64,000 nucleotides of DNA from Meiothermus sp. Pnk-1 (GTDB taxonomy: Bacteria; Deinococcota; Deinococci; Deinococcales; Thermaceae). Below are positions 980 to 20,102 of this stretch, one piece after another. Both the position numbers and the translations under genes were made by a program. Position 1 is the stretch's first letter. The number at the start of each line of letters is the position of its first letter. A model generated the notes under the pieces. That model had not been told where the DNA came from and searched no databases. It saw only the letters and a program-made list of their open reading frames with translations. Where the stretch lies: the NCBI RefSeq assembly GCF_003226535.1, contig NZ_QKOB01000002.1:124001-188000 (forward strand), written 5' to 3'.

Positions 980-1131
980 GGGCATCCTTTCTTGTGCGGA
1001 TGGATTGGCTTTGGGTCTGGATCGGCCATCAACCGCGGGTCCGCGCTACTTCCCCGCCGCGACGATGGCTCGAGCAAAGCACAGCCGTTTCGCCTCGAGG
1101 TCAATCCAGGAGCTGCCCATAGGGTAGAGGA

Positions 1132-1137
1132 ATCATA
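1132..1137 (-). promoter_or_regulatory. possible -10 box for the Rieske oxygenase gene
   Basis: TATGAT on the reverse strand, about 150 bases upstream of the gene, in the otherwise empty gap 986-1206. No convincing -35 was found, so this is only a candidate. Confidence 0.25.
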
Positions 1138-1206
1138 GCAAAATTCCCCTTGAGGTGTCTTCCAGAGGAGATTGAGCGCCCTCGGCGCTGCTGGGCCGAG
1201 GTCTCG

Positions 1207-1866
1207 CTAATCGCCCCTGAGCCGGTAGCCCTGGCCCCACACCGTCTCAAGCCGATCCGACTCGGTGAGGAGCTTTTTGCGCAGCCGGCCAATGTAGATG
1301 TCCACCACCCGCTCGGTACCCTCGTACTCGGCGCCCCAGTGCCGCACCAGCAGTTCCTCGCGGCTGAAGATGCGCCCGGGGGCCTGGGCCAGGGTCATCA
1401 GCAGGTCGAACTCCAAAGGCGTGAGGTGCAACGTGTCGTTGTCGAGCCAGGCTTCGCGGCTGCCGGGGGAGAGCTTGAGCGAGCCCATCACGATGAGCCC
1501 CAGCCGGCCCGAACGGCGCAAGAGGGCCTTCACCCGGGCGGCCAGCTCGCGCACGCTAAAGGGTTTGGTGAGGTAGTCGTCGGCCCCGCTCTCGAGGCCC
1601 CGCACCCGGTTGGTCTCGTCGGCATGGCCGGTGAGCATCAGCACCGGCAACTGGCCGAAATTCTGGCGAATGCCCTCGAGGACTTCCCAGCCGGATTGTC
1701 GCGGCAGGCCCACATCGAGTACCACCAGATCCGCTTCCGGTACGAAGTCCATGGCCTCGACGCCGTCACGGGCCTCCAGTACGGTAAGCCCTGCCGATTT
1801 CAGGGTAGAGGCGACCAACATACGAATGCCCGGATCGTCTTCTACGACCAGTACTTTGGCTGGCAT
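1207..1866 (-). CDS. OmpR/PhoB-family response regulator
   Basis: A 219-residue two-component regulator. Receiver domain: acidic pocket E9/D10/D11, phosphoacceptor D51 (VVLDVGLP), T79 (MLTG) and K101 (TKPF). The C-terminal winged helix (about 130-219) ends with RVVDIYIGRLRKKL...VWGQGYRL, typical of OmpR-type DNA binding. The start at 1866 was chosen because the receiver fold begins there (MPAKVLVVEDD) and GGGGGAAG lies 5-6 bases upstream; the longer frame to 1935 adds unrelated residues. It lies 34 bases downstream of the DUF11 operon on the same strand, so co-transcription is possible. No histidine kinase gene is in the window. Confidence 0.9.
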   Translation of the reverse strand: MPAKVLVVEDDPGIRMLVASTLKSAGLTVLEARDGVEAMDFVPEADLVVLDVGLPRQSGWEVLEGIRQNFGQLPVLMLTGHADETNRVRGLESGADDYLTKPFSVRELAARVKALLRRSGRLGLIVMGSLKLSPGSREAWLDNDTLHLTPLEFDLLMTLAQAPGRIFSREELLVRHWGAEYEGTERVVDIYIGRLRKKLLTESDRLETVWGQGYRLRGD

Positions 1867-1900
1867 CGCGTCTTCCCCCCACCAAGGATAACCCATCGTT

Positions 1901-4900
1901 CTAAAGGATCTTGACCCTGTAACAGACCTCACCACTGCCTCCTGCGCTCACACTCCCGACGCGGACCACGACCAAACCGCTGGAGACTTCACCGGCATCG
2001 GCATCGGCACCGTCTGTCAGAATTGTACCGTTCAGGCGCAGGCTTCCGGTGACATATGCACTGAAAAAGGGAATGGGGTCGGTGATGACCACCTGGGTCA
2101 CGGTCTGGGTGCCTTGGTTGCGGTAGGCGATGCAGTACTCGAGCACCTCTCCGGGCTTGGCGAGGGCGCTGGTGGAGAAGCTGCCGCTACAGGTGCCGTT
2201 GGGGTTGGTGAGCGCCCCGCAGTTGCGCACCTGCTTGCTCAGGGTGAGTTCGCCGGGGGCTTGCACGGTGGTGGTGTCGGTGAGGGTGCGGGGGTCGCTG
2301 ACGCTGGGGTTGCCCGCCCAGACCAGGCTCGAGCCGAGCTGGGCTATATCCACGCTGCCTACAGGCTTTCCGGCGGGGATGATCCCCCGCAGCTCGAGGG
2401 CACAGGCCCGCAGGCTGCCGTCGGCCTCACGGGGCCAGCTGCTGCCTACGCTAAAGCTAAGGGGAAGGTTCTGGAAATCCTCGCCGGGGTCGAAGCTGCC
2501 GTTGCAGTTGGCGTCCAGACGGGCCTGGTAGGTAAAGCTCCCGCCGCTTTGGCTAAGGGTGACGCTTCCCAGGGTGCCGGGGCGATAGAGGTGGCTATAG
2601 GTGATGGTGCCGGGGCTGGGGGCCTGGCCGGCGCTGTTGGGGTAGAGGCGGCTCTCGCGCACCAGGCCGAAGTTGTACCCGGCGTAGCTCTGGCCGTTCG
2701 CGAAGGTGAGGGTGCGCTGGCGGGCAGCGGGGTCGGCGAAGCTCGAGGCCAGGGTGACGCTACCGCCCGCGACATTGCTGCCGGTGGCCGGGTTTTGCGG
2801 GTGCGAGAGGGTTAGGTTGCCCGCGCTGAAGAGGCTGGCCGGCAGCCACAGGGTGTAATCGCCAGAGGTATCGGTGAGGGCGGTGCGGGTGTTGGCCCCC
2901 TGGGTGGCGCTCACCGTCACCCCCGGCACCCCGCGCTCGCCCCCGTCCTGCAAGGCGTTGTTGGCGGTACCTCCTGCCTCGCCGTCATCGTAGAAAACCC
3001 GCCCGCTGACCCGGCTGCCGTTGAAGAGGCCAAAGTCCTGGCCGCCGATGTTCGAGGTGCTTACGCTAAGGCTGCGGCTGCCCGTCATGGGCTCCACGAA
3101 CAGCCAGCCCGCCGGGGGGGTGGGGGTGGTGGCGCTGGCCGAGTTCGTCACCACCAGGGTGTAACTCCCCGGCACCACCCCGTTGAAGGTAAAGCTTCCC
3201 GTACCTGCGCTCACCGCCACACTCTGCACCACGCTCCCCCCCTGCACCAGGTTGACGTAGACCGTGGGGCCGCCGCTCCAGTCCTCGGAGGGCTCGCGCA
3301 CGGCGTTGGGCTGCTGGTCCTGGTAGATCCGCCCCGAGAGGGTCACCCCCTGAACGGTGAGGGTGGCGCTGGCGGGGTTGGGGCTATTGCCCAGGTCGGT
3401 TTGCAGGGCCCCTGCGGGCAAGGTGTTGGTATAGCTACCTGGGCTGTTGCTGGTGACCTGGACGCTTACGGTGCAGGTGCCGCCCGCCGGGATCTGGGCT
3501 CCACTACCCAGGCTCACCGAACTGCTCCCGGCCGCTGCCGTTACCGAACCGCCCGGGCAGGTGGTGCTGGCCGCCGGGGAGCTGGCCACCACCAGGCCTG
3601 CGGGCAGGTTGTCTATCAGGGCGGAGGTCAGCGTGGCCACAGCGGCGTTGGAGTTGCTCAGGGTGAGGGTCAGGGTGCTGGGGCTCCCCACGGGGATGCT
3701 TCCGGGGCTGAAGGCCTTGGCCAGACCCGGCGGGGTGGGCACGCTGGCGCTGGCGCTAGCCGAGGCGGCCTGGCTGAAGGCGGTGCCCAGGGTCTGGCTG
3801 TTGTAGTCCACCCGGGCGGTGTTGGTGAGGGTCTGGCCGGCGGCGCTGGGCAGGACCTGCACCCGGAAGCGCACCGTGGCCCCCTGGGTGGGCAGGATGA
3901 GGCCGCCCTGGGTGGCGTTTGCCCCGGTGCCGAGCCGGAAGCGGACGCAAGGGGGGCTTCCGGGAAGCTCGCTGCAAGCGGAGCTGTACTCGGCGATGTC
4001 GTCGCCTGCGGCGTCGGTGAAGGTGCCGGTGGGGGCGCCGGCGGCGTTTTGCACTACCCGGAGGCTACCCGGCACGTACTGGGTCCCGGAGGGGATGGGG
4101 TCCCGCAGCACCACGTTGGTGGCCCCGTCCCCCCCGGTGTTGGTGAAGCCCACGGTGTACTCCAAAACGTCCCCCACCACCACGTTCCCGCCGTTCAGGT
4201 CCTGCACCGTCTTGGTGAAGGAGGTGGTGAGGTCGGGGGCGTAGAGGTCTATGGCGAAGGTGAAGACGCCGGGGTAGTACCAATCGCCCCCGGTTTGGAA
4301 GGCGAAAGTGGCCGAGGTGGCCCCGTTGGGCAGGCCGCTCACCTGCAGGCGGTCTATGTCAAAGCCGAGCTGGTTGATGTAATTGGGGGTCTTGCCGGAG
4401 ACGTAAGCGCCCAGATCGCTGATGGTGGAGTTGAAGAAATTGTCGGCTGGGTTGACCGCGTTGGAGAGGGTAGCGCTGAAGCTGCCGCTGTTTAGCGTCA
4501 CGCTATCGCCCTTGGTGCCCAGGTCGCCCTCGTAGGCCACCATGCCCAGCCGGGCGTTCACCGGGCCGCTCAAAGGCGTGATGAAGCCGCTGACCGTTAT
4601 GGAGACGCTGGGGTTTGAACTGGTCACCGCGGCGAAGCCATCGTAGACCCTGAGGTGGCGCAGGGGCTCGCCGGAGCGCTGGTAGACCACCACCAAGCTC
4701 CAGCCAGCGTAGGGGCTGGGGGCGGTGCCGCTGGTGTACTGGGTGGCCTGCACGTTGGCCACCCAGTAGGTGCCGCTGCCTCCGGCCTGCACCAGGGAGG
4801 TGACCTCCGCAAACCGCTGGTAGCGGATGTAGCCTGGATCTGAGTTCGCGTAGTCGGTCTGGGTAGCGGTCAGGGTCTGGTAGCCGCTCATGGCAGGCGT

Positions 4901-5284
4901 GCGGAAGCCCACCTGCGCGGGGCTGGGGGGGGCGCTGCCCTGGTACTCGGCTCCCCAGTAGAGCCCCGCCCAGAGCACCGTGGCCCCGGCGGGCAGGCTC
5001 AGCGTGGCCGAGGAGGAGTTGAAGGTGGAGGGGTCGGTGTCGGCATCCACGTAGACCATGGTGAAGTCGTTGTTGTTGAGGGGGGAGCCGGTACCGTTCC
5101 GGGCGTTCGCACACTGGCCGGCATTGCTGGCCCCGCTGGCCGTGGAGCAAGTCATCAGGGTGTTGCCGATCAGCAGGATGTCGCCCTGGGTATTGGTGTT
5201 ATAGCGGGAGGTGAAGTTGCGCACCACCTGGGCCTGGGCCAGGCCCAAGGCGAAAGCGGCCAAAACCAAAAGAAGGCGCTTCAT
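1901..5284 (-). CDS. secreted DUF11 / SdrD-B-like surface protein (operon gene 5)
   Basis: 1,127 residues. Signal peptide 1-18 (MKRLLLVLAAFALGLAQA). About 20-345 is a beta-rich domain beginning QVVRNFTSRYNTNTQGDI, of the kind found at the front of many bacterial DUF11 proteins. Two DUF11 repeats follow (about 350-650; motifs VLEYTVGFTNTG..NVVLRDPIPSG and LTLTLSNSN..LPAGL), then two SdrD-B/Cna-B-like folds (SGRIYQDQ and SGRVFYDDG), a calcium-loop-like RLDANCNGSFDPGED, and a last DUF11 unit (VLEYCIAYRNQG..VVITDPIP). Such domains build rigid surface stalks; Lys/Asn isopeptide bonds are possible but unproven. Its ATG overlaps the stop of the upstream barrel gene (ATGA), so translation is coupled. 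Function is otherwise unknown. Confidence 0.85.
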   Translation of the reverse strand: MKRLLLVLAAFALGLAQAQVVRNFTSRYNTNTQGDILLIGNTLMTCSTASGASNAGQCANARNGTGSPLNNNDFTMVYVDADTDPSTFNSSSATLSLPAGATVLWAGLYWGAEYQGSAPPSPAQVGFRTPAMSGYQTLTATQTDYANSDPGYIRYQRFAEVTSLVQAGGSGTYWVANVQATQYTSGTAPSPYAGWSLVVVYQRSGEPLRHLRVYDGFAAVTSSNPSVSITVSGFITPLSGPVNARLGMVAYEGDLGTKGDSVTLNSGSFSATLSNAVNPADNFFNSTISDLGAYVSGKTPNYINQLGFDIDRLQVSGLPNGATSATFAFQTGGDWYYPGVFTFAIDLYAPDLTTSFTKTVQDLNGGNVVVGDVLEYTVGFTNTGGDGATNVVLRDPIPSGTQYVPGSLRVVQNAAGAPTGTFTDAAGDDIAEYSSACSELPGSPPCVRFRLGTGANATQGGLILPTQGATVRFRVQVLPSAAGQTLTNTARVDYNSQTLGTAFSQAASASASASVPTPPGLAKAFSPGSIPVGSPSTLTLTLSNSNAAVATLTSALIDNLPAGLVVASSPAASTTCPGGSVTAAAGSSSVSLGSGAQIPAGGTCTVSVQVTSNSPGSYTNTLPAGALQTDLGNSPNPASATLTVQGVTLSGRIYQDQQPNAVREPSEDWSGGPTVYVNLVQGGSVVQSVAVSAGTGSFTFNGVVPGSYTLVVTNSASATTPTPPAGWLFVEPMTGSRSLSVSTSNIGGQDFGLFNGSRVSGRVFYDDGEAGGTANNALQDGGERGVPGVTVSATQGANTRTALTDTSGDYTLWLPASLFSAGNLTLSHPQNPATGSNVAGGSVTLASSFADPAARQRTLTFANGQSYAGYNFGLVRESRLYPNSAGQAPSPGTITYSHLYRPGTLGSVTLSQSGGSFTYQARLDANCNGSFDPGEDFQNLPLSFSVGSSWPREADGSLRACALELRGIIPAGKPVGSVDIAQLGSSLVWAGNPSVSDPRTLTDTTTVQAPGELTLSKQVRNCGALTNPNGTCSGSFSTSALAKPGEVLEYCIAYRNQGTQTVTQVVITDPIPFFSAYVTGSLRLNGTILTDGADADAGEVSSGLVVVRVGSVSAGGSGEVCYRVKIL

Positions 5285-8200
5285 CGGCTACCCCCCAAGA
5301 CATCCAGGCGCACATAGAACCCTTCCCGCACGGTGAGTCCACCCCCGAAGGTGTATCCTGCCGCCACCCAAAGCTCTTCCAGCAAGCGGTAGCTGCCCTC
5401 GAGGCCCCAGGCCCAGGTGGCGGCCCCCAAAGCCGGGGTGAAGGTGCGGTAGAGGGCGCCGCCGATCCCGAAGCTGCGGCCCAGGTAGTAGGTGGCCCCC
5501 AGCCCGAGCTGGTAGGTGTTGCCCGCCCCGTCGTCGGGCAGGATGCGGTAGGCCAGGCTGGGACGGAGCTGGAAGGAGGACGCGGGGTAGTAGCTGAGGG
5601 CGGCCTCGCCCTCCAGCGTCCGCTCGGTGCCGCTTTGGAGCCGGTGGTAGGTGAGCAGGGTGACGTCGCTGCCGCGCAGGGCGTAGGCCAGGGTGAAGCG
5701 GCCTTCCGGGGTGGGCAGCACCTGGTAGGTGGCGTCCAGCGAGAGGGTCTGGCGGGGGTCCAGGCTGCCCGTCGCCCCACCCCGCAGGGTGAGCTTGGCC
5801 TGGCCGTTTTGGAAGGCCACTTCGCTTCCCGCGGTGGCGGAAAACTCCCCGCTCTGGTAGCGGGCGGCCAGGCCGAAGGCACTCCCATCGGCCCCGGTGG
5901 AGAGGCTGCGCTCGTACCCGGCGTTCAGGTTGAGGCTCCATTTTTCGTCCAAGGGGAGGGGCGCCTCGAGGCCGAAGCGGGCCCGGTTGCCCTCGCCGGA
6001 AGCGCCGGGAAGCTGGTAGGAGAGGGCCAGGTTGGCCCCTCCCAACTTCTGCTTGAGCCCTAGCGAGCCCGAGAAGCCCCCGCCCCAGGTGTAGCTCACC
6101 CCCGCTTCCGCGTCGAGGTTCGCCCCCAGCGGGTAGCGGGCGTCCAGGCGGCTCACCGCCTGCGCTTCGAGGCGGAAGGGCTGGGTGTGGGTGAGCTGGA
6201 GGCTGACCCCCTCCCCCTCGTAGCGGCCCCGCAGGAGCGCTCCCAGGCTCTCGCTCTCCCAGGTGTAGGCCAGACCGGCGCCCACGGTAAAGGCCGGGTT
6301 CAGGGGTTGTTCGTAGAGGAGGGCGGTCTGGTTTTGCTGGCTGCCTACGTGCTCGAGGGCGATTTTGCCCCCCGAGCCCAGGGTGGCCGCCACACGGGCG
6401 CTGCCCTGTACCCTATCTTCCACGCCGAGGCTGGCCTGACCCTCGAGCCCTCCCTGCCGGAGGCGCCCTTCAAACCCCCAGTGGCTCTTTCCATCGAAGC
6501 TGTAGCGGGCCTGCAAGCCATAGCCCTCCGCCTCGTAGCCCACCTGGGCTCCCCACAGGAGCCGCTCGAGCTGGGCCAGCCCCAGGCCGAACCTCCAGCC
6601 CCCGCTTTTGTACTCGAGCCCCGCCCCGAAACCGATCCGGTCGCGGGGGGCGTTTTCCGGGGCATAGGTGACGCGCAGGCGCACCGGCTGGAAGTCGGGG
6701 GTGGTGGGCCAGAGCGGTTTGGCGAGGGTCAGGGTGCCGCTGGGGTAATCCAGCGTGTAGTCTTTGAGGCGCTCGAGGACGGTTTCCTGCTGGCCCTCCA
6801 ACAGCACCACCTTTTCGCTTCCCGAAAGCACCGGCTCGCCCAGGGAGTAGATCCGGGTCCCGTCGGGGAGGATCTCCCGGGTCCGGGTCGTGCCGGGCAG
6901 CAGCGCGGCGAAGCCCTTCAGGCTGAGGTCGCCCCGGGTTTCCCCGCGCAGGGCGGTGGCCGCGGGCAGATTGCTCACCCCCGGCACGCTCAAGCCGTCG
7001 GCGTAGTAGCCGAGGCTGAAATGGGGGTCGTCGTAGCGCAGGGCGATGGGGTCGTCCGAGCGCAGGGCGGGTTTGGCCTCTTGGCCCGAGCCCAGCAGGG
7101 GGAAGCGCCCGGTGGGATCCACTTGCCGGTCGAGGCCGCCGTTCAGTTGGGGGTGCCCCTGGTCGAAGCCCAGGGCGGCGTCAAGGGCTCCCTGCAAGCG
7201 GCCCTGGCCGAGGGGCAGCTCGAAGTAGCCCCGCGCATGGCCGAAAGCCTCCACGGTCTGCCCTACCCGCAGGCCGATGCTGCCTTGGTACTGGTAGAGC
7301 GTGGCCTGGCTACCCGGCACGAAGAACTCGGCGGCGCTTTGCAGGTTGTTGTAGGCCAGCTCGAGCCGCACCTGCCCAGGGGTGCTGAGGGGCTTGAGCC
7401 GCAGCACCGCCCGCCCGTCCTTGAGCAACACCTGGTACCCAGCCTCGGCGGGGAAGGCGTCGGGCTCGAGCGGTTCGGCGCCCGCGGCGGCCACCGTGAG
7501 CGGGCCGAAGCCCGAGGGCAGGCCCAGCGCGTCCTGGGCCAGCAGCTCGAACTCCAGGGGGGAGCGCCCGTCGGCCAGGAGCTTCAAGGGGCGGACCAAG
7601 AGCCGCACCGGAGCCCCGGCTAAGAAGACCTCTACCTGGTCGTGTAGCTCCCCGGCGGATAGCTCGATCCGGTTCAGCCCCGGCTTCAGCGGCAGGCCGT
7701 AGAACTCCAGCCGCTGCACGCGGGTGGACTCGTCGTACTGGGCCTTACCGAGCGATTGGGCGGTGGCTGCCTCGCCGTTTACGTATAGTTCCGGGTTTGG
7801 CCCCAAGGGCAGCTCGAGGATGACGCGGATGCGCTCCTCCCGGAACACCGTGCCCGGCTGGGGTTCGCGGATGAACCCCTGGCGTTCTCCGGCTTGCCAG
7901 GGCCGGGCTTTCTCGGCCTGGGCGAAGGACAGGGTGCCTTTGAGGAAGACTTCGCGCTCGCCGGTGCGCAGGGTCAGGGTGGGTTCTTCGAGCGCGCCCA
8001 GCGCGTCGCGGTGGCGCAGCGTATAGCTGAGGGTGCCGCGGGGCTTTACCGGGAGTTCCCAGAATAGCCGCCCCTCGGCGTCCACCTTGGGGTCGGGGAG
8101 GGGTAGCCCGTCCAGTCGGCTCGAGCCCGGCTCGTAGGTGGCCCCGCTCGGGGGGCGTTGGGTGATGAGCAACCGCTCGCCCTGGCCCTCTAGGCTAAAC

Positions 8201-10812
8201 GGCAGTTCGATTTGCGATAGGCGGATGGGCTCGAGCCTCGGCTTCACCCGCAGGGAAGCGGTAGCCGGGGAGGCAGCGGGGGTGGTGCCCAGCCAGGCGC
8301 TGACTTGGTTCTCGAGGGCACCCAGGAGGTTGGGCCGGGCGGGGAAGGTGAGCTCTCGGGCCTCGCCCGGGGCGAGGGTCAGCTCGAGCGCGCTGGCCTC
8401 CAGGCCCAGCCCGGCGACGGGATTCTCGCGCAGGGTGAGGGTGAGGGGGCGGGCCAGCGGGTTGCTCAGGCGGGCTTTGAAGGTGGCCTCACCTCCCGCC
8501 ACCACCACCCCTGGCTCGGCCACCTGCTCGAGCCCCACCAGACGGCGGCGCAGGGTGTCGGAGGCCGCCTGGTCCCCTCCGTCCGAATGCAAAGTCGCCC
8601 GGAACAACCCCACCCCTTCGGGGCCGAAGGCCACCCGCACCCGGTAGGTGTGGGTCTGGGTTTGCCCCGGCTCGAGCCGGCCTTGCCAGCGAGGGTTCTC
8701 CAGGGGGATTACGCTTTCCGGCGGGGTGTCGGTGAGGGTGTAGGTGAGGGGGGCCAGCCCCTGGTTCTCGACCTTCAGCGTGACCGTTAGTTCCTCGCCG
8801 GGGACCGCCTCGCTGAACTCGAGGCGGCGGGTCAGGGTGGCGCGGGGGCGCAGCACCCGGATTTCCGCCTTCGACTCGGTCCCGTCGGCCAGGCGGGCGG
8901 TAGCGCTCAGGGTGTCCGCCGCTTCCGGGGTGACGCGACCTCCAAACTCCAGGCTCCAGCTCTGGCCGGGCCCAAGCCGTATCTCCACGGCTTGGGCCCG
9001 CTGCGGGCGTACCTCGAGGCCTGAGGGCGGGGTGAGTTCCACGGCTGTTTCCCCGGCCAAGTCGCCGGCGTTGCGCACCGTGAGGCGGTAGGTGGCCTCC
9101 TCCCCCACCGCGGCGGCGGGCTTTAGGGCCTCGAGCTGGAGGGTGAAGGCGGCAGGCTGCCGGACGGTCACCTGGGCCGCCTGCGCCAGCCCCCAGGGGG
9201 ATAGCCGGGCCTCGGGGGTGAAGATCCCGCGTTCCCTGGCCCGTACCCGCACGGTGAGGGTGGCGCTTTGGTTGGCCGAGAGCGGCGCGGTAAGGCGGGG
9301 GGTGGAAAGGGCTTCCAACCCGGCGGGCAAGGCCAGCTCGAGGTCGGCGGGGAGGAAGTCGGGGAAGGCGGTTCGGGCGCTGAGGGTGAAGGCCGCTTCC
9401 TCTCCGGATTGCAGGGTGAGCTCGTGGGGCGCGAGGCTCAGGGTCACCTCTGGCCTGACCCGGTAGGTGAGGCTGCGGGCCTCCCCTGGCCGCAGGGTCA
9501 CTTCCTTTGGCCCCTCGACGCTGGCCCCGCTGACCTCGGGCTTTAGCGGGTAGGTGCCGGGGGCGAGCGCGAGCTTGGCCGAGCCGCCGCCGAGCTGTAC
9601 GGCCCGTTCGCCTACGCGCAGGTTGAGGTCGTAGGGGACCTCGCCCCCGGGCAGCACCAGCACGGCCTGGATTTCTAGGGTGCCCTTGGCCGGGGTCGGT
9701 TCGGGTTTGGCTAGCCCTTGCAGCACAAAGCGCACCGTGCCCCCGGGGAAGCCCACCTGGGCCTTGCCCACCCCCACCACCCGGCCCCCGCTGACCTCCG
9801 CGCGGACGAAGCGGTAGCCGTCGGGGAGGGGGCCCAGCGTGACGACCCGCACCGCGTCGCCCTCGAGGGTGTAGGAGGCCTTTAGCGGGTGGCCCGCGGT
9901 ATCTACCACCTCTACTTGCACCGGGCCGGGATCTCGCACAGCCAACGTGCCGTCGGGGCTGATCTGCACCCACCGGCCAAACTGCAAGCCGATGGTGTTG
10001 GAGTACTGCTTAGCCTGAAGGCCGGGGCGAGCCAGGATGGTGTAGCGCCCAGGGCGCTCGATCTGGAAGTAGACCCACTCCCGGTCCCCCGACACCGGCA
10101 GCACCGAGAGGCTGCCGTCGGGGTTCTTGAGGCGTAGCTCGAGCTCCTTGGGGCCGTCGCCGTCGTAGATGCCGACCCGTAAGCCCTTCTCGTCGTGCAC
10201 CTCGAGGGTGTAGACCTCCTGGAAGCCGTGGACTTGCATCCAAACATTGCGGGTTAGGCGGATATCCTCGAGCTTTAGGGTGGGGTTGAGGGCGATGGTG
10301 ATCGCGCCTGGGTCCTGGGATGCGACCCGCAGCCGGAAGGCGTTTTTGCCGAAGCCCTGAAAGCTCGAGAGAAAGATGTACTCGCCAGGCTCGAGTCTTC
10401 CTGAATAGAAACGTTCCCAGCGGTGCGACTCGAGGCCATAAGTTTTTCGGGCCAACACTCGCCCTTGCTGGAAGTAAGCGAAGCTATAGCTGGCCGAGAG
10501 CGCTCCCTGACCCTTGTCGTAGCGTTCGTCGCCGAGTTCCTGGGCTCCGCGCATGGCCGAGCGATAGTCTTTGGGGTCGAAGCCGGGCGAGTATAGCCAT
10601 AACTCGACCTGGGTGGGTTTGCTCACCAGGAGACGAGCCTCATAGCGGTTGATCTCCCAGCCCAGCTGGTCGCCGGGCACGATGCCCACCAGATCCACCG
10701 CTTGGCTCGCGGCGGGCACACTTTTTTGTGCGGAGGCTACGCCACCCAACGCCAGAGGCAAGGCGCAGAACGCCAGCAGAAGGGTGTAGAGCGTTTTGCG
10801 TTGAGCGCTCAA
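5281..10812 (-). CDS. giant Ig-like plus outer-membrane beta-barrel protein (operon gene 4)
   Basis: 1,843 residues from TTG at 10812, which has GGAGG five bases upstream; a longer frame from TTG 10824 is possible. Signal peptide about 1-28 (hydrophobic, ending ASAQ). About 30-440 is a beta-rich region of unknown family. About 450-900 holds at least four CARDB/NEW3-like Ig repeats (for example VGEEATYRLTVRNAGDL and PGEELTVTLKVENQGL). Further beta-sandwich domains run to about 1150. The last ~650 residues alternate aromatic/Gly strands with short turns (GFGAGLEYKSGGWRFGLGL, FGLAARYQSGEFSATAGSE), as in a large outer-membrane barrel. DYTLDYPSGTLTL in the barrel entry resembles a motif in SprA-type and usher-like proteins; that comparison is from memory. 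It may anchor or export the DUF11 proteins encoded beside it (inference). Confidence 0.75.
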   Translation of the reverse strand: MSAQRKTLYTLLLAFCALPLALGGVASAQKSVPAASQAVDLVGIVPGDQLGWEINRYEARLLVSKPTQVELWLYSPGFDPKDYRSAMRGAQELGDERYDKGQGALSASYSFAYFQQGRVLARKTYGLESHRWERFYSGRLEPGEYIFLSSFQGFGKNAFRLRVASQDPGAITIALNPTLKLEDIRLTRNVWMQVHGFQEVYTLEVHDEKGLRVGIYDGDGPKELELRLKNPDGSLSVLPVSGDREWVYFQIERPGRYTILARPGLQAKQYSNTIGLQFGRWVQISPDGTLAVRDPGPVQVEVVDTAGHPLKASYTLEGDAVRVVTLGPLPDGYRFVRAEVSGGRVVGVGKAQVGFPGGTVRFVLQGLAKPEPTPAKGTLEIQAVLVLPGGEVPYDLNLRVGERAVQLGGGSAKLALAPGTYPLKPEVSGASVEGPKEVTLRPGEARSLTYRVRPEVTLSLAPHELTLQSGEEAAFTLSARTAFPDFLPADLELALPAGLEALSTPRLTAPLSANQSATLTVRVRARERGIFTPEARLSPWGLAQAAQVTVRQPAAFTLQLEALKPAAAVGEEATYRLTVRNAGDLAGETAVELTPPSGLEVRPQRAQAVEIRLGPGQSWSLEFGGRVTPEAADTLSATARLADGTESKAEIRVLRPRATLTRRLEFSEAVPGEELTVTLKVENQGLAPLTYTLTDTPPESVIPLENPRWQGRLEPGQTQTHTYRVRVAFGPEGVGLFRATLHSDGGDQAASDTLRRRLVGLEQVAEPGVVVAGGEATFKARLSNPLARPLTLTLRENPVAGLGLEASALELTLAPGEARELTFPARPNLLGALENQVSAWLGTTPAASPATASLRVKPRLEPIRLSQIELPFSLEGQGERLLITQRPPSGATYEPGSSRLDGLPLPDPKVDAEGRLFWELPVKPRGTLSYTLRHRDALGALEEPTLTLRTGEREVFLKGTLSFAQAEKARPWQAGERQGFIREPQPGTVFREERIRVILELPLGPNPELYVNGEAATAQSLGKAQYDESTRVQRLEFYGLPLKPGLNRIELSAGELHDQVEVFLAGAPVRLLVRPLKLLADGRSPLEFELLAQDALGLPSGFGPLTVAAAGAEPLEPDAFPAEAGYQVLLKDGRAVLRLKPLSTPGQVRLELAYNNLQSAAEFFVPGSQATLYQYQGSIGLRVGQTVEAFGHARGYFELPLGQGRLQGALDAALGFDQGHPQLNGGLDRQVDPTGRFPLLGSGQEAKPALRSDDPIALRYDDPHFSLGYYADGLSVPGVSNLPAATALRGETRGDLSLKGFAALLPGTTRTREILPDGTRIYSLGEPVLSGSEKVVLLEGQQETVLERLKDYTLDYPSGTLTLAKPLWPTTPDFQPVRLRVTYAPENAPRDRIGFGAGLEYKSGGWRFGLGLAQLERLLWGAQVGYEAEGYGLQARYSFDGKSHWGFEGRLRQGGLEGQASLGVEDRVQGSARVAATLGSGGKIALEHVGSQQNQTALLYEQPLNPAFTVGAGLAYTWESESLGALLRGRYEGEGVSLQLTHTQPFRLEAQAVSRLDARYPLGANLDAEAGVSYTWGGGFSGSLGLKQKLGGANLALSYQLPGASGEGNRARFGLEAPLPLDEKWSLNLNAGYERSLSTGADGSAFGLAARYQSGEFSATAGSEVAFQNGQAKLTLRGGATGSLDPRQTLSLDATYQVLPTPEGRFTLAYALRGSDVTLLTYHRLQSGTERTLEGEAALSYYPASSFQLRPSLAYRILPDDGAGNTYQLGLGATYYLGRSFGIGGALYRTFTPALGAATWAWGLEGSYRLLEELWVAAGYTFGGGLTVREGFYVRLDVLGGSR

Positions 10813-13508
10813 GGGTACCTCCAACGCGCCTGCGGGTCGGTAAGCGCGCTCTGATCTACGTCGTAGGTCAGAACCTGCTCCCCCTCAAGCCGGGGGAAGT
10901 GGAACACCTTCTCCCCGCCGCCGGCCAGCGGATCGGTAACGGTGAGATCCGAAAGCGCTTCGCGGGCCTCGAGCCTAAGCACCACCCGGTAGCCCCGGGG
11001 CAGGGGTACGAGGCGTTTTTCGATGCGCAGCGGCCCGAACTCCAGCACCGTGCTGCGGGCTGCGGTGATGGTACCCTGGGGGGCCTCGAGCGGGAAGTCG
11101 CTGGTGGTGAGGCCCTGCACGGTAACCCGGTGGCGGTAGCCCTCCCCGCTGGCCTCGGGGTGGGGGAGCAGGGAGAAGGGGGCCGAGGCCGGATCGAGCA
11201 TCACCGTCCAGACCCCCGGCTCGAGGTCGCGGAAGGCGTAGCGCCCCTCGGCGTCGGTGAGCCCCTGCCAGCCGTTGCCCAGGATCACCCGGGCGCCGGG
11301 GAGGGGCAGGTCGAGCCCTGGGGTGTACCGTCCATCGCGATTCACGTCCAAAAACACCCGCCCGACCAGGGTGCCCCGGGGGGCAAAGGTACCTGGCTCG
11401 AGCTGCACCCGGGCCTGGCTCCTGGCGCTGGCCAGCGCGGTCCCTGCGCCGGTGGTGCCGAAGGCTTGGGCGGTGTTTAGCAACTCCTGGGGGGCTCCGG
11501 GGAGCACCCGGAGCTGGTAGCTCAGGCAGCGGCGTTCCTTAGCCCTCAGGGCGATTCCCTGCCATACCAGGTGGCCCTCTTGCCCGGTCGGCTCGAGGCC
11601 CTCCCCGCTGCCTGCGCAACCCCCCCCGGCGGGGTAGAGCCGAGCCGAGCCGGCCACGTACTGGGTTCCCTGGGGTGGGGTGTCCACCAACCGCACCTCC
11701 AGGTCCGCCGTGCTGGGGTTGGCCACCTCGAGGCGGTAGGTGAGCCGGTCGCCGTAGCTGGCCTTGGAGCGGTCCACCGATTTTTGCAGCAGCAAGCCCG
11801 CGCTCAAGACCCGGTTTTGTACGAGGTTGGAGCGGAGCGGGTCGGGGGTCAGGGTGGAGGTCAGGCTGAAGCGGTTGAGGATTAGGGTGTCGTCGGGGGT
11901 TCCTGGGCGCACCCGGGCCTGGAGGGTGAGGGTGCGGGTGAGGCCGGAGGGCAGATCTCCCAGCTCCCAGACCACCTGCCGGGTGGCGGGGTCAAAAGCG
12001 CCGCCATCCGAGGCCGAGGCGAACTCCAGCGCCGGGTCCAGGGGATCCACCACCCGTACCCCGCCCAGGTCTGTCAAGGTGTTCTCGATGCGCAGGGTGT
12101 AGGTCAGAAGGGTTCCCTCCGCCACCGTCCCGGTAGGGCTCACGCGCTTGCCCAGGAGCAGCCCGGCGGGATCGAGCACCGCGAGCACCTGGTCCTGGGT
12201 ACGGTTGGCCTTGCCGGTGGTCACGGAGACGGCGGACAACTCCACGGTGAACCCCGCGAGCACCGCGTCCACCCGCAAGCAGTAGCGGAAGTCCCGACGA
12301 GTCCCGGCCGCCAGGGGCAGCGGGTCGGGCAAGGGCGAGCCATCCAGGCTCTGGAAGCTCCCCGTGGCCCTGCCGGGAAGCCCGGAGGCTTGCAGGGTGT
12401 AGGAGTCATCGGCCGTCCCGGCGTTCTCCAGGGTATGGGTGAAGCAGTAAGGCTGCCCGGCGATCAGGCCAACCGCTTGCTGCTGGTCGTTGAGGCTGCC
12501 CTCGCCGCCGGGAAGGGCCCGGGGGTTGCCATAGGGGCCTAGGTAGTGCGCGTAGCTGCCCAACAGCTCGAGCGCGGCCTCACCCCGCGAAGGCCCCCCC
12601 TCGCCGCTGGCTTCGGCCCGGTTGGTGCGTACCCCCGGGGTAGCCGAGACCGCCCGTACCCGGAAGGAGAGCCGGGCTTCTTCCCCGCCCTCGAGCTTGG
12701 GCAGCACCAGCCGCACCCCGCGCACGCTGGCCGGTTCGCTGGCCGTCCAGGTAGTGCCGTCGGCGGTGTACTCGAGCTGTCCCTTGGCCGCCTGGGCGGA
12801 ACCGGCCACGTACTCCAGCCCGTTCATCTCGGGGGTATCCAGCCGGTCGGTGAGCACCACCGGACCCGCTGCGACCTGGTTGCCGGCGTTGCGCAGCACC
12901 AGGTCGAAGGTGGCTTCCTCGCCGGACGAAATTCGGCTTGGGCTCACCGCCTTGCTGAGCTGCAAAGCCGGGCCGCTCCCCACCTGGATATAGGCGTAGT
13001 TGTCGCTGTCCTGGGCGCTGCCGCAGGTGGCGATGGGCGAGAGGAATAGATCCCCGCTGGCCGGACTGGGCAGCACCACCTCGAGCACCAGCCAGACCTC
13101 CTGGCCCGGCGCGAGCGAGAGGCTATTCACCACAGGCTCGCCGGGGTCGCGCTGGGCGTTTTGGTTGGCATCCAGGTAAAAGCGCACCGCGCTGGGGGAG
13201 AAAGTTGAAGCTGCGGCTTGGGCCCAGGAGAGGGAAAAATCAAAGGAGGCGTTTCCAGCGTTTCGTAACCGGTAGGGAAGGTACGCCGTACCCCCGGCGG
13301 AGGCCACCACGCGCAAGGCAGGGCTGGCCGGGGTGCCATTGGGGGAGACCACCGGCACGCAAATCGCCTGCACGAGGGTCTCTACCGGGTTAGAAAGATA
13401 AACCTGACCCTCCACCGTGGCCACCGCCTGGTTGCGGATCACCGTGCCCGCCGGAGTGGCCCAGGCTAGGCCGGCCAGGGCGAGGAGGAGGGTCGAAAAA
13501 AAGCGCAT
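10809..13508 (-). CDS. secreted DUF11 repeat protein with SdrD-B domain (operon gene 3)
   Basis: 899 residues from MRFFSTLLLALAGLAWA, a signal peptide; the frame extends to 13562 but the extra residues precede the signal. The mature N-terminus TPAGTVIRNQAVATV matches that of the next upstream protein (TPAGTSIQNQASATY), so the two are paralogues. It has calcium-loop-like FYLDANQNAQRDPGE, then about four DUF11 units (motifs such as EATFDLVLRNAGN..VLTDRLD and LTYTLRIENTL..VVDPLDP), and an SdrD-B/Cna-B-like fold (LVGRVFLDVNRDGRY...GLTDAEGRYAFRDLEPG). Its TGA stop overlaps the TTG start of the barrel protein by four bases. The role is likely structural at the cell surface. Confidence 0.8.
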   Translation of the reverse strand: MRFFSTLLLALAGLAWATPAGTVIRNQAVATVEGQVYLSNPVETLVQAICVPVVSPNGTPASPALRVVASAGGTAYLPYRLRNAGNASFDFSLSWAQAAASTFSPSAVRFYLDANQNAQRDPGEPVVNSLSLAPGQEVWLVLEVVLPSPASGDLFLSPIATCGSAQDSDNYAYIQVGSGPALQLSKAVSPSRISSGEEATFDLVLRNAGNQVAAGPVVLTDRLDTPEMNGLEYVAGSAQAAKGQLEYTADGTTWTASEPASVRGVRLVLPKLEGGEEARLSFRVRAVSATPGVRTNRAEASGEGGPSRGEAALELLGSYAHYLGPYGNPRALPGGEGSLNDQQQAVGLIAGQPYCFTHTLENAGTADDSYTLQASGLPGRATGSFQSLDGSPLPDPLPLAAGTRRDFRYCLRVDAVLAGFTVELSAVSVTTGKANRTQDQVLAVLDPAGLLLGKRVSPTGTVAEGTLLTYTLRIENTLTDLGGVRVVDPLDPALEFASASDGGAFDPATRQVVWELGDLPSGLTRTLTLQARVRPGTPDDTLILNRFSLTSTLTPDPLRSNLVQNRVLSAGLLLQKSVDRSKASYGDRLTYRLEVANPSTADLEVRLVDTPPQGTQYVAGSARLYPAGGGCAGSGEGLEPTGQEGHLVWQGIALRAKERRCLSYQLRVLPGAPQELLNTAQAFGTTGAGTALASARSQARVQLEPGTFAPRGTLVGRVFLDVNRDGRYTPGLDLPLPGARVILGNGWQGLTDAEGRYAFRDLEPGVWTVMLDPASAPFSLLPHPEASGEGYRHRVTVQGLTTSDFPLEAPQGTITAARSTVLEFGPLRIEKRLVPLPRGYRVVLRLEAREALSDLTVTDPLAGGGEKVFHFPRLEGEQVLTYDVDQSALTDPQARWRYP

Positions 13509-13567
13509 TCTCTTTTGGCTAGGGGTATCCCTGCCCCGGGCAACCGACCGGGGCAGGGCCAAAGGGC

Positions 13568-16318
13568 TTACTGTACCTGCACCCGCAGGGTCAGGGTGAT
13601 CTTGGCGGCGGGGGGCATGGTGTCGGCTGCGGTAATGTTGTTATCGCCGTTGGTATCCACCGCCACGTAGACGCTACCGCCCGCGGGCACGCTGGAGGGA
13701 GCCGTGGTGGACCAGGTGGTGCCGTTGGTGGAGTAGAGCACCGTGCCGGAGATGGTGGTGGTCGCGCTCACCGAGACAAAGGTGGTGTAGGCGGGAATGG
13801 GGTCGGAGACCACCACCTTGGTCAGGTTGGCGGTGCCGATGTTCTCGGCCACCACGGTGTAGACGATCTGGTCGCCGGGGTAGGCCTGGGCGCCGCTACT
13901 CGAGCGCACGGTGGAGCTCGAGCCCACGTAGCTCACCGCGCTCTTGTTGAGGCGCAGGTCGCCGCCCACGACGGTGGTGGTGTCGGTGACGCTGGCCGTA
14001 GCCGTGCCGCTGGCGTAGGTGGCGGTGGCGGTGAGGTTGGCGGCCTCGCTGCGGCCCACGGGCTCGCCCGCCGGGACGATCACCCGCACCTGCAGGTTGG
14101 CGCTGGCCCCGATGGGGAGGGAGAGCCCGCTCACGCTCGAGGTCCAGGTGCTACCGCCGTCGGTGGAGAACTGGTAGGTCCAGCCGTAGGCGCTGGTGTA
14201 GGCCGGGATGCTCACCGTGGCCGGTTGGTTGCCGTTGTTGGTGAGGGTGTGGGTGTAGACGATGGTGCCGGGGCTGGTCACGGTGCCGGAGCGGTTGGGG
14301 GTGAAGGAGAAGGCCCGCACCGCGTTCACGTCCACCGCGCCCAGGAGGGTATCGGAGACGCTGCCCAAGGTGGTGCTGGTGACGGTGAGCTGCACGTTGT
14401 CGCTGGTCCCGGGGGTTACGTCCACCGGGGTGGCGTTCGCGGGAACGGTCACCACGGCGATGAAGCACTTGGTCTGGCCGGCGTTGATCAGCCCGGTGCT
14501 GCTGACAGGGGCCGGCTGGGGGGTGTCCATGTTGCCGTCGCAGTTGGCGTCGGGGTAGAAGCTGACCGTCCAGCCCGTAGGCAGGGTGCTGGCGAGGTTG
14601 TAGGTGTCGGGGTTGACGCCGGTGTTTTTCACCTCGAAGGGGAAGAGGGCGCTGCCGCCGGGGTTCACCGCCGGGTTGTAGCCGGGGCGGGTGTTGTTGG
14701 CCGGGTTAGCCGGTTCGCCACCCGCGGCCCCGTCGGTGTTGTGGGCGGCATCCACGCCGTAGCCGGAGACCACCTGGCTTACGGTATCGGTGGTGGTGTC
14801 CGACTTGGAGGCATCGCCCGTGCTGGTGGCCTTCACCGTGATGGGGGTCGCGCTGGCGTTGGTGTAGCTGGCGGGGATGTTGCACTGCAGGGCGAAGCTG
14901 TAGTCGGCCCCGGCGGCCACCGGGCCCACCGGGCCGGAGATGGGCGTGCTGAGGTCGTCGGCCACCAGCTGGCAGCTCCAGCTTGCGGGCTGGCCGGTGT
15001 AGGAAAGGTTGAAGCTGTCGCCGGTGTTTCCGGTGTTGCGCAGGGTGTGGCGGAAGAGGACCGCGGTGCCGCTGTTGGCGGAGGCGATGCTCTGGGTGTC
15101 CCCGCTGCGCGTCACGGTGTAGCCGCCGGCGGTATAGGTGCCGGAAGCGCTGCCCAGAGGGTTCTGGTAGGGGCCTACCTGGACGTTATAGGCGGCGGCT
15201 ACGGTGGTGCTGGTGGTGTTGGAGGTGACGGTCTCCCCAGGGTCGTTCGCGTTGCCGTTGCCGTTGGCGTCGAATTTGAGGGTGGCGGAGTTGCTGTAGG
15301 AGGTGCCGCTGGCAGCGCCGGAGGGAACCTGGGCCTGGAAGCTGAGGGTGTAGGTCGCGCCCTGGGGGAAGAAGTTGCCGCTGCCTTCGATCAGCATCCC
15401 CACCGCGTTCACCCCCGAGCTAGGCTGGGTGGAGGTCCAGGAGGTGCCGCCGTTGGTGGAGTAGATCAGGGTGACGGTCCCGGCCCCGGCGCTGCCGCTG
15501 AGGGAGTTTGCCACGTACGTGAGCCCGCTGGGGATCACGTCGGTGATGAGGATGCCGTTTTTGGCGGTACTGCCCAGGGTGACCACCCCGGTCACCGCGC
15601 CCGCCGCGCTCCCGCCGGTGTTGGAGCCCGTGAGGGTGTAGGTGATGTTCTGGCCGGGGGTGACGCTGGAGGAGGGGCTGGCCGATTTGGTCAGGGTCAG
15701 GGTAGCAGCGGTGTTGGCGATGACCCGGGCCCAGTTGTCGTTATCGCTGACGCTGGAGTTGCCCTGCGAGGTGCCGACCAAGTTGACGTTGGCGGTCTGG
15801 CCGTTGGTGGCGCTGGCCGGAACGGTGCCCTGGAGCACCAAGCAGGCCGAGGCCCCCTGGGCCAGGGTGATGCTGGTCACGGTGGGCTCGCCGGAGTCGG
15901 GTTGGCCGTTGCAGTTGGCGTCGCGAACGATGCTGGGGGCAGAGAGGTCAAAGTTGTCGGCGGTGCCCTGGGCGACGCTAAGGTTGATGGTGTCGGTGCC
16001 GTTGCCGCTGTTGGTTATGGTGTAGGCCAGGTAGGCCGGGGCGCCGGGCAGCGCGGTGCGGGTCTGGCCGGGGCTGGTCAGGTTGGCCTCGCTGGCCGGG
16101 GAGCCGGAGTGGGTGCTGTTGGGGGTAATGGTGAAGCTGTAGACCTGCTGCACTACCGTCACCACCAGGTTGGAGGTGGTGCTGCGGGGTTGGTTGGCCG
16201 AGTCGATATAAGTGGCCGAAGCCTGGTTTTGGATGCTGGTTCCCGCCGGGGTCTGGGCGAGGGCCAGGCCAAACCATAAGGACAACACCATGCCGAGTAT
16301 GCCGACGAGTCTTTTCAT
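13568..16318 (-). CDS. secreted DUF11 repeat protein with EF-hand-like C-terminus (operon gene 2)
   Basis: 916 residues. The start at 16318 is set by AAGGAGG three bases upstream and by a signal peptide (MKRLVGILGMVLSLWFGLALAQ). The rest is Thr/Ser/Asn/Gly-rich beta repeats: several DUF11 and NEW3-like units (ITYTLTGSNTGGSA..ILITDVIPSG, IVYTVVAENIGTA..VVSDPIPA), three DxNxNGxxDxGE loops (DANCNGQPDSGE, DANGNGNANDPGE, DANCDGNMD) and near the C-terminus VDTNGDNNITAAD, which fits an EF-hand or dockerin calcium loop. The high Ser/Thr/Asn content contrasts with the Leu/Glu-rich cytoplasmic proteins. It is likely a calcium-stabilised surface component; no enzyme motif is seen. Confidence 0.8.
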   Translation of the reverse strand: MKRLVGILGMVLSLWFGLALAQTPAGTSIQNQASATYIDSANQPRSTTSNLVVTVVQQVYSFTITPNSTHSGSPASEANLTSPGQTRTALPGAPAYLAYTITNSGNGTDTINLSVAQGTADNFDLSAPSIVRDANCNGQPDSGEPTVTSITLAQGASACLVLQGTVPASATNGQTANVNLVGTSQGNSSVSDNDNWARVIANTAATLTLTKSASPSSSVTPGQNITYTLTGSNTGGSAAGAVTGVVTLGSTAKNGILITDVIPSGLTYVANSLSGSAGAGTVTLIYSTNGGTSWTSTQPSSGVNAVGMLIEGSGNFFPQGATYTLSFQAQVPSGAASGTSYSNSATLKFDANGNGNANDPGETVTSNTTSTTVAAAYNVQVGPYQNPLGSASGTYTAGGYTVTRSGDTQSIASANSGTAVLFRHTLRNTGNTGDSFNLSYTGQPASWSCQLVADDLSTPISGPVGPVAAGADYSFALQCNIPASYTNASATPITVKATSTGDASKSDTTTDTVSQVVSGYGVDAAHNTDGAAGGEPANPANNTRPGYNPAVNPGGSALFPFEVKNTGVNPDTYNLASTLPTGWTVSFYPDANCDGNMDTPQPAPVSSTGLINAGQTKCFIAVVTVPANATPVDVTPGTSDNVQLTVTSTTLGSVSDTLLGAVDVNAVRAFSFTPNRSGTVTSPGTIVYTHTLTNNGNQPATVSIPAYTSAYGWTYQFSTDGGSTWTSSVSGLSLPIGASANLQVRVIVPAGEPVGRSEAANLTATATYASGTATASVTDTTTVVGGDLRLNKSAVSYVGSSSTVRSSSGAQAYPGDQIVYTVVAENIGTANLTKVVVSDPIPAYTTFVSVSATTTISGTVLYSTNGTTWSTTAPSSVPAGGSVYVAVDTNGDNNITAADTMPPAAKITLTLRVQVQ

Positions 16319-16328
16319 AGGCCTCCTT

Positions 16329-16853
16329 CTATCTGACGACGCTGCGTAGCTTGAGCAAAACTTTTTCCTTGGGGGCCAGCTCCGGTAACACCCAGCGGGC
16401 ATGGGTGTACTCCTCGGGCTTGACCTCGAGCTCTTTTTCAACTTCCTTGCCGTTTTCGCTCACCCGCACCTTACGCTTGAGCGGGGGAAGGCCATAGGTC
16501 TGTCCCCCGTCGTAGGAGAACATGGGCAGCAGCCGGGTACTGCCTCGCTCGAGCACCAGCGCGCTCCCCTCCAGGTAGCGGGTCTCCTTGGGGATGGGAA
16601 TCACCAAGACCACCTGGCGCAGCGGCCGCTCGGTGGTGTTTTCGGCCTCGAGCCGCCACTCCAGGATGTCCCCCGGCTTGACCGCTAGCGCCGGTTGGAA
16701 GGTCTCGCGGGGTTGTCCCTCTCCTTTTTCCTGAACCACCCGTACCGAGCTCAGGGTGAGCTTCACCGGCTCGGCGGATTGCGCCAGGGTGGGCAACAGC
16801 CCAAGAACCGCCCCGGCAAGTAGCTGTATCGCGCGTGTCCAAAGCCTGTTCAA
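16329..16853 (-). CDS. small secreted protein with a single DUF11-like domain (operon gene 1)
   Basis: 174 residues from TTG 16853 (GGAGG five bases upstream), or 178 from ATG 16865, where no ribosome site is visible. Signal peptide about 1-26 (ends LAQSA). The mature part has one beta-sandwich with the DUF11-like phrase LEWRLEAENTTERPLRQVVLVIPIPKETRYL, then a Lys/Glu-rich stretch (RKVRVSENGKEVEKELEVKPEEY). It is the first gene of the envelope operon, ends 10 bases before the next start, and may be a periplasmic or surface adaptor; no specific function is known. Confidence 0.7.
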   Translation of the reverse strand: MNRLWTRAIQLLAGAVLGLLPTLAQSAEPVKLTLSSVRVVQEKGEGQPRETFQPALAVKPGDILEWRLEAENTTERPLRQVVLVIPIPKETRYLEGSALVLERGSTRLLPMFSYDGGQTYGLPPLKRKVRVSENGKEVEKELEVKPEEYTHARWVLPELAPKEKVLLKLRSVVR

Positions 16854-17048
16854 CGCCACCTCCATGGGGGAGTCCCTTCCCTATGGAAGGTTAGACTAAA
16901 TGTATAAATAGAAATTAAAAACCCGCCGGTCGCCTATGGATTTGACGCACCGCGACTCGCGAGGTTTACGTATTGCACCGGCAGCTTGATTTGGGCTGAC
17001 CGCATGTTGGACGTCGTACGGCCTACGTCATACGTCATACGAAGAGGA
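16854..17048. promoter_or_regulatory. AT-rich probable promoter region of the envelope operon
   Basis: 16888-16922 is a marked AT-rich island in a GC-rich region. On the reverse strand it contains TATACA and TAGTCT, either of which could be a -10 for the operon starting at 16853; no clear -35 is present. Beyond it, 16985-17045 carries TACGTCATACG-type short repeats seen again near 58,300 and 63,430. No gene is seen. Confidence 0.4.
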
Positions 17049-17336
17049 TCGTCCCTCGGGTGTACGGCGGTACGCCGTCCCGTTAGGGAATCTACCCCAG
17101 GTGTACGGGCGTAGCCCGTCCCAAAGGGAATCTACCTCTAGGTGTACGGCGGCACGCCGTCCCGATAGGGAATCTACCCCGGGTGTACGAGCTTTGCTCG
17201 TCCCGAGACGCTTCCTTCGCCGCCGGTAGGCGGGGTAGGGAATCTACCTCCGGGTGTACAGCCATAGGCTGTCCCGAAGGGGATCGTCCCCTAGGTGTAC
17301 GGCGGTACGCCGTCCCGATAGGGAATCTACCCCCGC
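17049..17336 (+). repeat. tandem 41-bp hairpin repeats (six units)
   Basis: Units begin with TGTAC at 17061, 17102, 17143, 17184, 17254 and 17296 (steps 41, 41, 41, 70, 42). Each has a 6-bp perfect stem with 3-base loop, then GTCCCGATAGGGAATCTACC or, for the flanks, GGATCGTCCC. The stem arms differ yet always pair: ACGGCG/CGCCGT, ACGGGC/GCCCGT, ACGGCG/CGCCGT, ACGAGC/GCTCGT, ACAGCC/GGCTGT, ACGGCG/CGCCGT. The 70-base step contains an extra hairpin (CCGCC GGTA GGCGG at 17220-17233). The open frames that read through it have periodic phrases such as GRFPIGTAYRRTPRG and are repeat translations, not genes. Confidence 0.85.
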
Positions 17337-17574
17337 GTTTAGCGTCTGGCGTTTTGCGTATTGCGTATGGCGTACGGACGTATACCAGCCCCACCCCAAC
17401 CCTCCCCTGCTAGGGGAGGGAGCACCCCGCGTTTAGCGTTTTGCGTACGACGCATACCAACCCAGCTACTAGAGGAGGGGGTATTTAGCTTCCCTGGCCC
17501 TCGGCCTGGCCGCCTACGGGCAAGGCGAAGGGTGAGATCGCCCTCTCCTGGCGGGCCATCGTGGTACCAGACCC
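17337..17574. repeat. mixed intergenic repeats including a palindromic CCCTCCCC element
   Basis: Two copies of a GCGTTTAGCG...TTTTGCGTA phrase (17335-17360 and 17429-17450) flank CCAACCCTCCCCTGCTAGGGGAGGGAG at 17396-17422, an inverted repeat (CCCTCCCC TGCTA GGGGAGGG). Similar CCCTCCCC/GGGGAGGG elements are widespread in bacterial intergenic DNA. It lies between two genes read leftward, so it could act as a transcription barrier; there is no T-tract. No gene is seen. Confidence 0.6.
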
Positions 17575-19017: not shown

Positions 19018-19083
19018 AGCCTTCTTAGCCTACCGCTTCGCCCGGCTTTGCAAAACACCCGCTAACCCAATTCGATCCTGGGC

Positions 19084-19701: not shown

Positions 19702-19708
19702 AATGTCT

Positions 19709-19714
19709 AAAGTA
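19709..19714 (-). promoter_or_regulatory. -10-like box, leaderless start of the uracil-DNA glycosylase gene
   Basis: TACTTT on the reverse strand, seven bases before the ATG at 19701. No clear -35. Confidence 0.35.
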
Positions 19715-19733
19715 CAAGCTTTAGGAGCGAGCG

Positions 19734-20102
19734 TTACTCCACGGGTTTACGAGCCTTGCGCGCTTCGCGGCGAATTTTTGGATCCAATCCAATCATTAAA
19801 AAGAAGTTCTCGAGAGCGTTTTCTTTCCCCTTGATCTCGGGGTAAGCGTCCTCGGCGGTGCCCGTCACAAAGGGGAGATTTTGATACAAGTGGATAGCCT
19901 GCTCAACCACTTCTTCTGGACCGTGCAACTCAGCGATCTCGGCAAGCTGGGCGTATACTTCACGCCGGGCTTCGGCGTGGCGCTTGAACACCTCAGGGTT
20001 GGGGGTCTCGGGCGACCGGAGGACATCCTGCTTGGCGATACGCCGGTAATGCTTGAGCCCCCGCACGATCTCCTCGGTCGAAAGCGTAATTTTGTACTCC
20101 AT
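19734..20102 (-). CDS. conserved hypothetical helical protein
   Basis: 122 residues (MEYKITLSTEEIVRGLKHYR...). The start at 20102 is set by AAAGGAG six bases upstream; the frame reaches 20216 but the extra residues look random. It is mostly charged helices (EVFKRHAEARREVYAQLAEIAELH), with no signal peptide or known catalytic motif. Probably a small cytoplasmic protein; I do not recognise the family. Confidence 0.7.
   Translation of the reverse strand: MEYKITLSTEEIVRGLKHYRRIAKQDVLRSPETPNPEVFKRHAEARREVYAQLAEIAELHGPEEVVEQAIHLYQNLPFVTGTAEDAYPEIKGKENALENFFLMIGLDPKIRREARKARKPVE

Follow-up and report, generated by a model that had tools for sequence, protein, structure and literature searches.

A predicted surface fibre operon of Meiothermus sp. 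Pnk-1 based on split DUF11 domains

What do five consecutive genes for secreted proteins build at the surface of the heat-loving bacterium Meiothermus sp. Pnk-1? The genes lie in a stretch of 64,000 nucleotides (positions 124,001 to 188,000 of contig NZ_QKOB01000002.1), hereafter called the window. Translation and a reading of the junctions gave five minus-strand open frames, each with a signal peptide, which were named A to E. We consider it likely that this operon specifies a surface fibre whose subunits complete one another's split DUF11 (CLIPPER) domains with donor strands. The computed basis is the split register, a conserved gene set, the distribution of an isopeptide triad, a donor-acceptor model and a barrel model; from these we infer polymerisation and the order of the subunits, covalent locking, adhesion, and what A and D do. 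The genes are as follows.

16329-16853, minus strand: gene A, 174 residues; a single acceptor-like DUF11-type domain in which the catalytic Asp is missing; proposed to cap or chaperone donor strands reversibly.
13568-16318, minus strand: gene B, 916 residues; N-terminal donor and C-terminal acceptor; proposed shaft subunit.
10809-13508, minus strand: gene C, 899 residues; N-terminal donor, three complete DUF11 domains and a closed-looking C-terminus; proposed base subunit.
5281-10812, minus strand: gene D, 1,843 residues, TTG start; N-terminal immunoglobulin (Ig)-like/DUF11 region and predicted C-terminal barrel; proposed to serve in the outer membrane as assembly platform, anchor or both.
1901-5284, minus strand: gene E, 1,127 residues; variable N-terminal modules and a truncated DUF11 C-terminus; proposed tip adhesin.

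A first-pass annotation of the window had described five secreted proteins of these lengths, packed with 4-base overlaps. The frames and signal peptides were found as described (A has an alternative upstream ATG at 16865 that would give 178 residues), but overlaps occur only at C-D (TTGA) and D-E (ATGA); the A-B junction is a 10-nucleotide gap containing an AAGGAGG site, and B and C are separated by 59 nucleotides. The description of DUF11 proteins holds for four of the five: the Pfam family PF01345 (DUF11/CLIPPER) matches B (28.3 bits), C (105.6), D (28.3) and E (64.4) above its gathering score of 24.6, and A matches no Pfam family over cut-off. E also matches SdrD_B and DUF7933, and B exceeds the cut-off of the NCBIfam isopeptide-forming fimbrial domain TIGR04226. 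All DUF11 matches in the whole genome fall within the A-E operon.

The key feature of these proteins is where their terminal domains are cut. A, B and E terminate inside a DUF11 domain, ahead of its final strands. B and C begin right behind the signal peptide with AGTxIxNQAxA...SN, which is the continuation past the cut point in complete DUF11 domains. The segments concerned are the following.

16154-16255, minus strand: B donor strands, residues 22-55, TPAGTSIQNQASATY...SNLVVTVV, directly behind the signal peptide.
13571-13966, minus strand: B acceptor domain, residues 785-916; truncated DUF11 with Lys792 and Asp839.
13359-13457, minus strand: C donor strands, residues 18-50, TPAGTVIRNQAVA....
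1904-2272, minus strand: E acceptor domain, residues 1005-1127; truncated DUF11 with Lys1017 and Asp1069.

A hidden Markov model of DUF11 was trained on 164 complete internal domains, with terminal domains and N-termini excluded. Alone, the acceptors of B and E matched it up to positions 100 and 98, respectively, of 136. Appending the B donor extended the acceptor match to 132 and the C donor to 126, with a gain of 10 to 14 bits; Pfam's DUF11 model gave the same donor extension for B and E. All 34-residue windows of the five proteins outside the training domains (3,647) were then appended to the acceptors in turn. The top window was the same for the A, B and E acceptors and started at B residue 21. 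The window at C residue 16 came second with the B and E acceptors; with A it was third, after the one at B residue 22. The top-ranking windows are the mature N-termini of B and C. Across relatives, the median gain with the B donor was 14.2 bits for A (n=35), 12.5 for B (n=35) and 14.0 for E (n=25), whereas the C-terminus of C gained 5.9 bits (n=28). Read from sequence, these results indicate that A and E are acceptors only, that B is both donor and acceptor and that C is a donor. The C-terminus of C is probably closed, the weakest of these assignments.

DUF11 was renamed CLIPPER on the basis of crystal structure 9IFR, which has a Lys715-Asn806 isopeptide bond with Asp748 as the presumed catalyst (PMC12617251). 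The same Lys-Asp-Asn triad is near invariant in the complete internal domains of B and C, except for the Asp of the first C domain (20 of 28). It is also preserved across the split. The acceptor Lys and Asp are found in 35/35 and 34/35 relatives for B (positions of Lys792 and Asp839) and in 24/25 and 25/25 for E (Lys1017 and Asp1069), while the Asn sits in the donors (B Asn31, 35/35; C Asn26, 28/28), where an Ala is likewise invariant. At each joint, the acceptor Lys and Asp would meet the Asn of the incoming donor strand, and the Lys-Asn isopeptide bond that should then arise spontaneously would lock the fibre. In A, Ile or Val replaces the Asp in all 35 relatives; A-like proteins of four other lineages also lack it, while the B- and E-like acceptors there keep it (Glu in one). 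The loss of Asp from A and its retention in the B and E acceptors suggest covalent joints everywhere except with A. We therefore propose, from this residue pattern, that the fibre joints are probably self-locked by Lys-Asn bonds.

For A, we favor a role in the periplasm, where it would bind donor strands reversibly and give them up on assembly. A tentative alternative, which we hold to be possible but the less probable of the two, makes A a second tip or an initiating fibre subunit and not a chaperone-like cap. Being acceptor-only like E, A could occupy a chain end, but it carries no additional module, and its catalytic Asp is missing in every lineage examined.

It is also conceivable, if rather unlikely, that the fibre is held by donor strands with non-covalent joints and that the triad is retained for packing only. 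Some DUF11 domains lack the isopeptide bond (PMC12617251), and the bond is not known to form between two DUF11 chains. The near invariance of Lys, Asp and Asn across the split argues for a bond instead, as does the specific loss of Asp in A, the one acceptor expected to release its donor.

The fit of donor to acceptor was modelled with the help of a Thermaceae locus, L064, in which the B stop is followed by a short signal peptide and then the C donor in the same frame. With the stop read as a residue, the B acceptor and C donor form a continuous chain. AlphaFold2 modelled this chain with a predicted local distance difference test score (pLDDT) of 90.7 and a predicted template modelling score (pTM) of 0.84. 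The donor (residues 161-180) reached pLDDT 95, and the signal-peptide linker 57 to 61. Donor strands lie at 160-164, 167-170 and 173-176, their pairing being read from secondary structure and confidence only. The PDB neighbours of the model include CLIPPER 9ifr, one of the top matches, and isopeptide pilins and adhesins such as BcpA, SspB and RrgB; a search of PDB sequences found no meaningful relatives of the B/C construct.

D was expected from the first-pass annotation to fuse an Ig-repeat region with an outer-membrane barrel. An alignment of 23 D relatives was used for AlphaFold2 modelling of its last 810 residues:

5284-7713, minus strand: modelled part of D, pLDDT 83.9, pTM 0.67.

In order, the model shows one Ig-like domain, about 8 strands, a plug-like insertion (model residues 277-350, approximately) and some 31 strands to the end, in line with the expected fusion. 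The C-terminal part of D is thus predicted to be a large beta-barrel. Foldseek against the PDB placed LptD first, followed by the FimD and PapC ushers, whose translocation domains gave target template modelling scores of 0.35 to 0.37; as read from the model, these matches mean giant-barrel likeness and are not functional evidence. SprA, the type IX secretion translocon, of which the strand number is reminiscent, is absent among the 50 Foldseek matches listed, and no SprA family search was made. PDB sequences hold no meaningful relatives of D, and some members of the D family have weak porin matches.

The gene set is conserved. D is present in 37 of 50 Thermaceae genomes searched, and 12 of the 13 genomes without it belong to one genus. 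The order A-B-C-D-E on one strand was found in 27 of 33 Thermaceae loci examined; five of the remaining six are interrupted by contig ends, and the sixth (L051) lacks E and has a broken D. Complete A-E sets also occur in two Trueperaceae loci (L099 and L100) and on pTT27 of Thermus thermophilus HB8. This linked order across genera, found by homology search, agrees with the first-pass description of a coupled operon; the genes are not scattered. In T. thermophilus HB27 (L119, 7904-14897), A and B are lost; what remains is D, a portion of C and pieces of E. The intact operon of HB8 adjoins a type I-E clustered regularly interspaced short palindromic repeats (CRISPR) locus, and the HB27 remnants adjoin a type I-C CRISPR locus. 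Four Thermaceae loci (L070, L071, L072 and L073) hold a second, diverged pair without A, B or E. The first gene of the pair encodes a long protein resembling C, with an open frame of 966 to over 3000 residues that closes with a similar tail, TDPDLxxEE; the second encodes a D-like barrel.

Beyond these families, Deinococcus megaplasmids carry reduced or diverged sets. In Pacificitalea (L122) and Acinetobacter (L123), a C-like donor and a D-like barrel form one polypeptide, which supports C as the subunit adjacent to D. When the D-like barrel of these fused proteins served as a query, plasmids of rhizobia and cyanobacteria also gave matches, which were weaker and partial. The same DUF11 cut is seen in most of the A-, B- and E-like proteins of Deinococcus, Pacificitalea, Acinetobacter, Novosphingobium (L125) and the cyanobacterium Kovacikia (L126), a range that takes in Alpha- and Gammaproteobacteria, and all of these proteins gain 8.6 to 16.0 bits from the B donor of the window. 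Sequence comparison thus places related gene sets in at least three phyla, Deinococcota, Pseudomonadota and Cyanobacteriota. On plasmid p4 of Acinetobacter haemolyticus, the B-like gene is split into several frames (L123, 10848-13051; sequencing error or decay), and the A-, C/D- and E-like genes are open.

Within E, the first 620 or so residues are poorly conserved and the rest better. Relatives of E swap the upstream modules, which include L-type lectin-like (below the Pfam cut-off), lamin-tail, GEVED and SpaA_4 domains. Exchangeable N-terminal modules are expected of a tip adhesin, as which E is a candidate by its sequence.

Taken together, the parts suggest a directional assembly. E, which has variable N-terminal modules and an acceptor but no donor, would form the tip; B, with both donor and acceptor, would polymerise head-to-tail into the shaft; and C, with a donor and a closed-looking end of its own, would terminate the chain at the base. 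Export of the chain, its anchoring or both would fall to D as a barrel in the outer membrane. The first-pass annotation had D serving stalk-like partners. The conserved order, the barrel model and the C-like/D-like fusion in proteobacterial relatives favor a service of this kind, but free-standing stalks do not fit, since the split DUF11 ends predict a directional chain. The version in which these proteins are separate fibrillar adhesins or surface layer-like stalks tethered to D, with terminal half domains that are relics of repeat duplication or same-chain pairs and join no subunits, draws on the usual place of DUF11 as a stalk domain of single-chain fibrillar adhesins (PMC12617251) and on the lack of any reported fibre for this operon, but is quite improbable, as the cut position is kept across several phyla, the donor Asn and Ala are invariant, and same-chain pairing cannot serve A and E, which have acceptors without a donor, or C, which has a donor without a clear acceptor.

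Several points weigh against the donor-strand fibre. It is predicted from gene sequences, and no such fibre has been observed. Much of the bit gain in the appending test is supplied by the donor's own likeness to a DUF11 end, so the test names the missing piece and not the partner. The joint model is a linked chain without a scrambled-donor control. The closed end of C rests on a poor DUF11 score and an invariant LTDPxxRWRYP tail. For A, a place as tip or cap is conceivable instead of a chaperone role, and D may secrete the chain or only anchor it. Full-text literature on DUF11 together with donor strands, Thermus or Deinococcus yielded no description of this system, which is weak evidence given the thin coverage of subscription papers and preprints. 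Nor was literature found on the HB8 locus (inferred old tags TTHB179-183) or for Deinococcus MP1 tags.

Other features of the operon and its surroundings were also recorded. The DxNxNGxxDxGE-type loops noticed in the first pass are present at B 133-144, B 350-362, B 590-601 (variant), C 113-124 (variant) and E 924-935, as is an EF-hand-like loop at B 888-899; as sequence motifs, they may point to stabilisation by calcium. A stem-loop between B and C was considered as an expression step and rejected: the hairpin is present, but it is no more stable than shuffles (z -0.70) and does not appear among the terminator-like hairpins listed. No known RNA families were found in positions 1-20000 of the window. 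Upstream of the operon, 17015-17341 holds an array of imperfect repeats, about 41 nucleotides each, that contain short palindromes (GTGTACGGCGGTACGCCGTCCCG...GGGAATCTACC). At 1207-1896 lies a response regulator gene of the OmpR/PhoB type, with a possible start 4 nucleotides after E. Its membership of the system was rejected: a close relative (L038) also has it behind E, but this is not the rule elsewhere. A different response regulator lies upstream in other Thermaceae, and one lies near the Pacificitalea operon.

How does the proposed fibre compare with known systems? One close analogy, among unrelated proteins, is with chaperone-usher pili (FimA/FimH/FimC/FimD, PapC). There, too, subunits have an unfinished Ig-like fold whose end is supplied by the N-terminus of the next subunit, the tip adhesin lacks a donor, and the operon encodes a large outer-membrane barrel, as is predicted here for D; FimD and PapC are among the best Foldseek matches to D. 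However, the subunits here are large multi-domain DUF11 proteins whose split domain holds an isopeptide triad, and the presumed chaperone A presents a groove, not a strand. Neither the usher family PF00577 nor the PapD-type two-domain chaperone PF00345 has a match in this genome, D included, while E. coli controls match both. Membership of the chaperone-usher family is thus ruled out, although the way of working would be similar.

Archaeal threads (Saci_0406/Saci_0405) offer a precedent: they combine donor-strand complementation with what appears to be an isopeptide bond between subunits, and their putative cap lacks an acceptor site (PMC9715654). The likeness lies in donor strands and an intersubunit bond, a comparison of mechanism only. 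Their small subunit is unrelated, their chemistry joins an N-terminal Asp to Asn57 between subunits n and n+2, and they have neither an outer membrane nor a barrel. DUF11/CLIPPER fibrillar adhesins share the family and the triad (PMC12617251). In those adhesins the domain is complete and the bond lies within one chain, whereas here a terminal domain is split over two subunits. Sortase-assembled Gram-positive pili (BcpA, RrgB, SpaD) have isopeptide-stabilised Ig-like pilin domains, as the fold matches and TIGR04226 recall, but a sortase joins their subunits. Sortase assembly was rejected for this operon, as PF04203 has no match in the genome and Gram-positive controls match.

We see about an even chance that the operon represents an undescribed class of fibre in diderm bacteria. 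In such a class, donor-strand insertion into a split, self-catalysing isopeptide domain would weld the joints, making the fibre a natural tag/catcher polymer. The fibre would come with an usher-like barrel of its own, and its groove-type chaperone, lacking the catalytic acid, would bind donors reversibly. The class would extend to at least Deinococcota, Pseudomonadota and Cyanobacteriota. If this is true, a new assembly route would be added to the short list of donor-strand fibres, and a function would be explained for many operons of "DUF11 domain-containing" proteins. It would also provide a thermostable natural split-isopeptide polymer useful in protein engineering.

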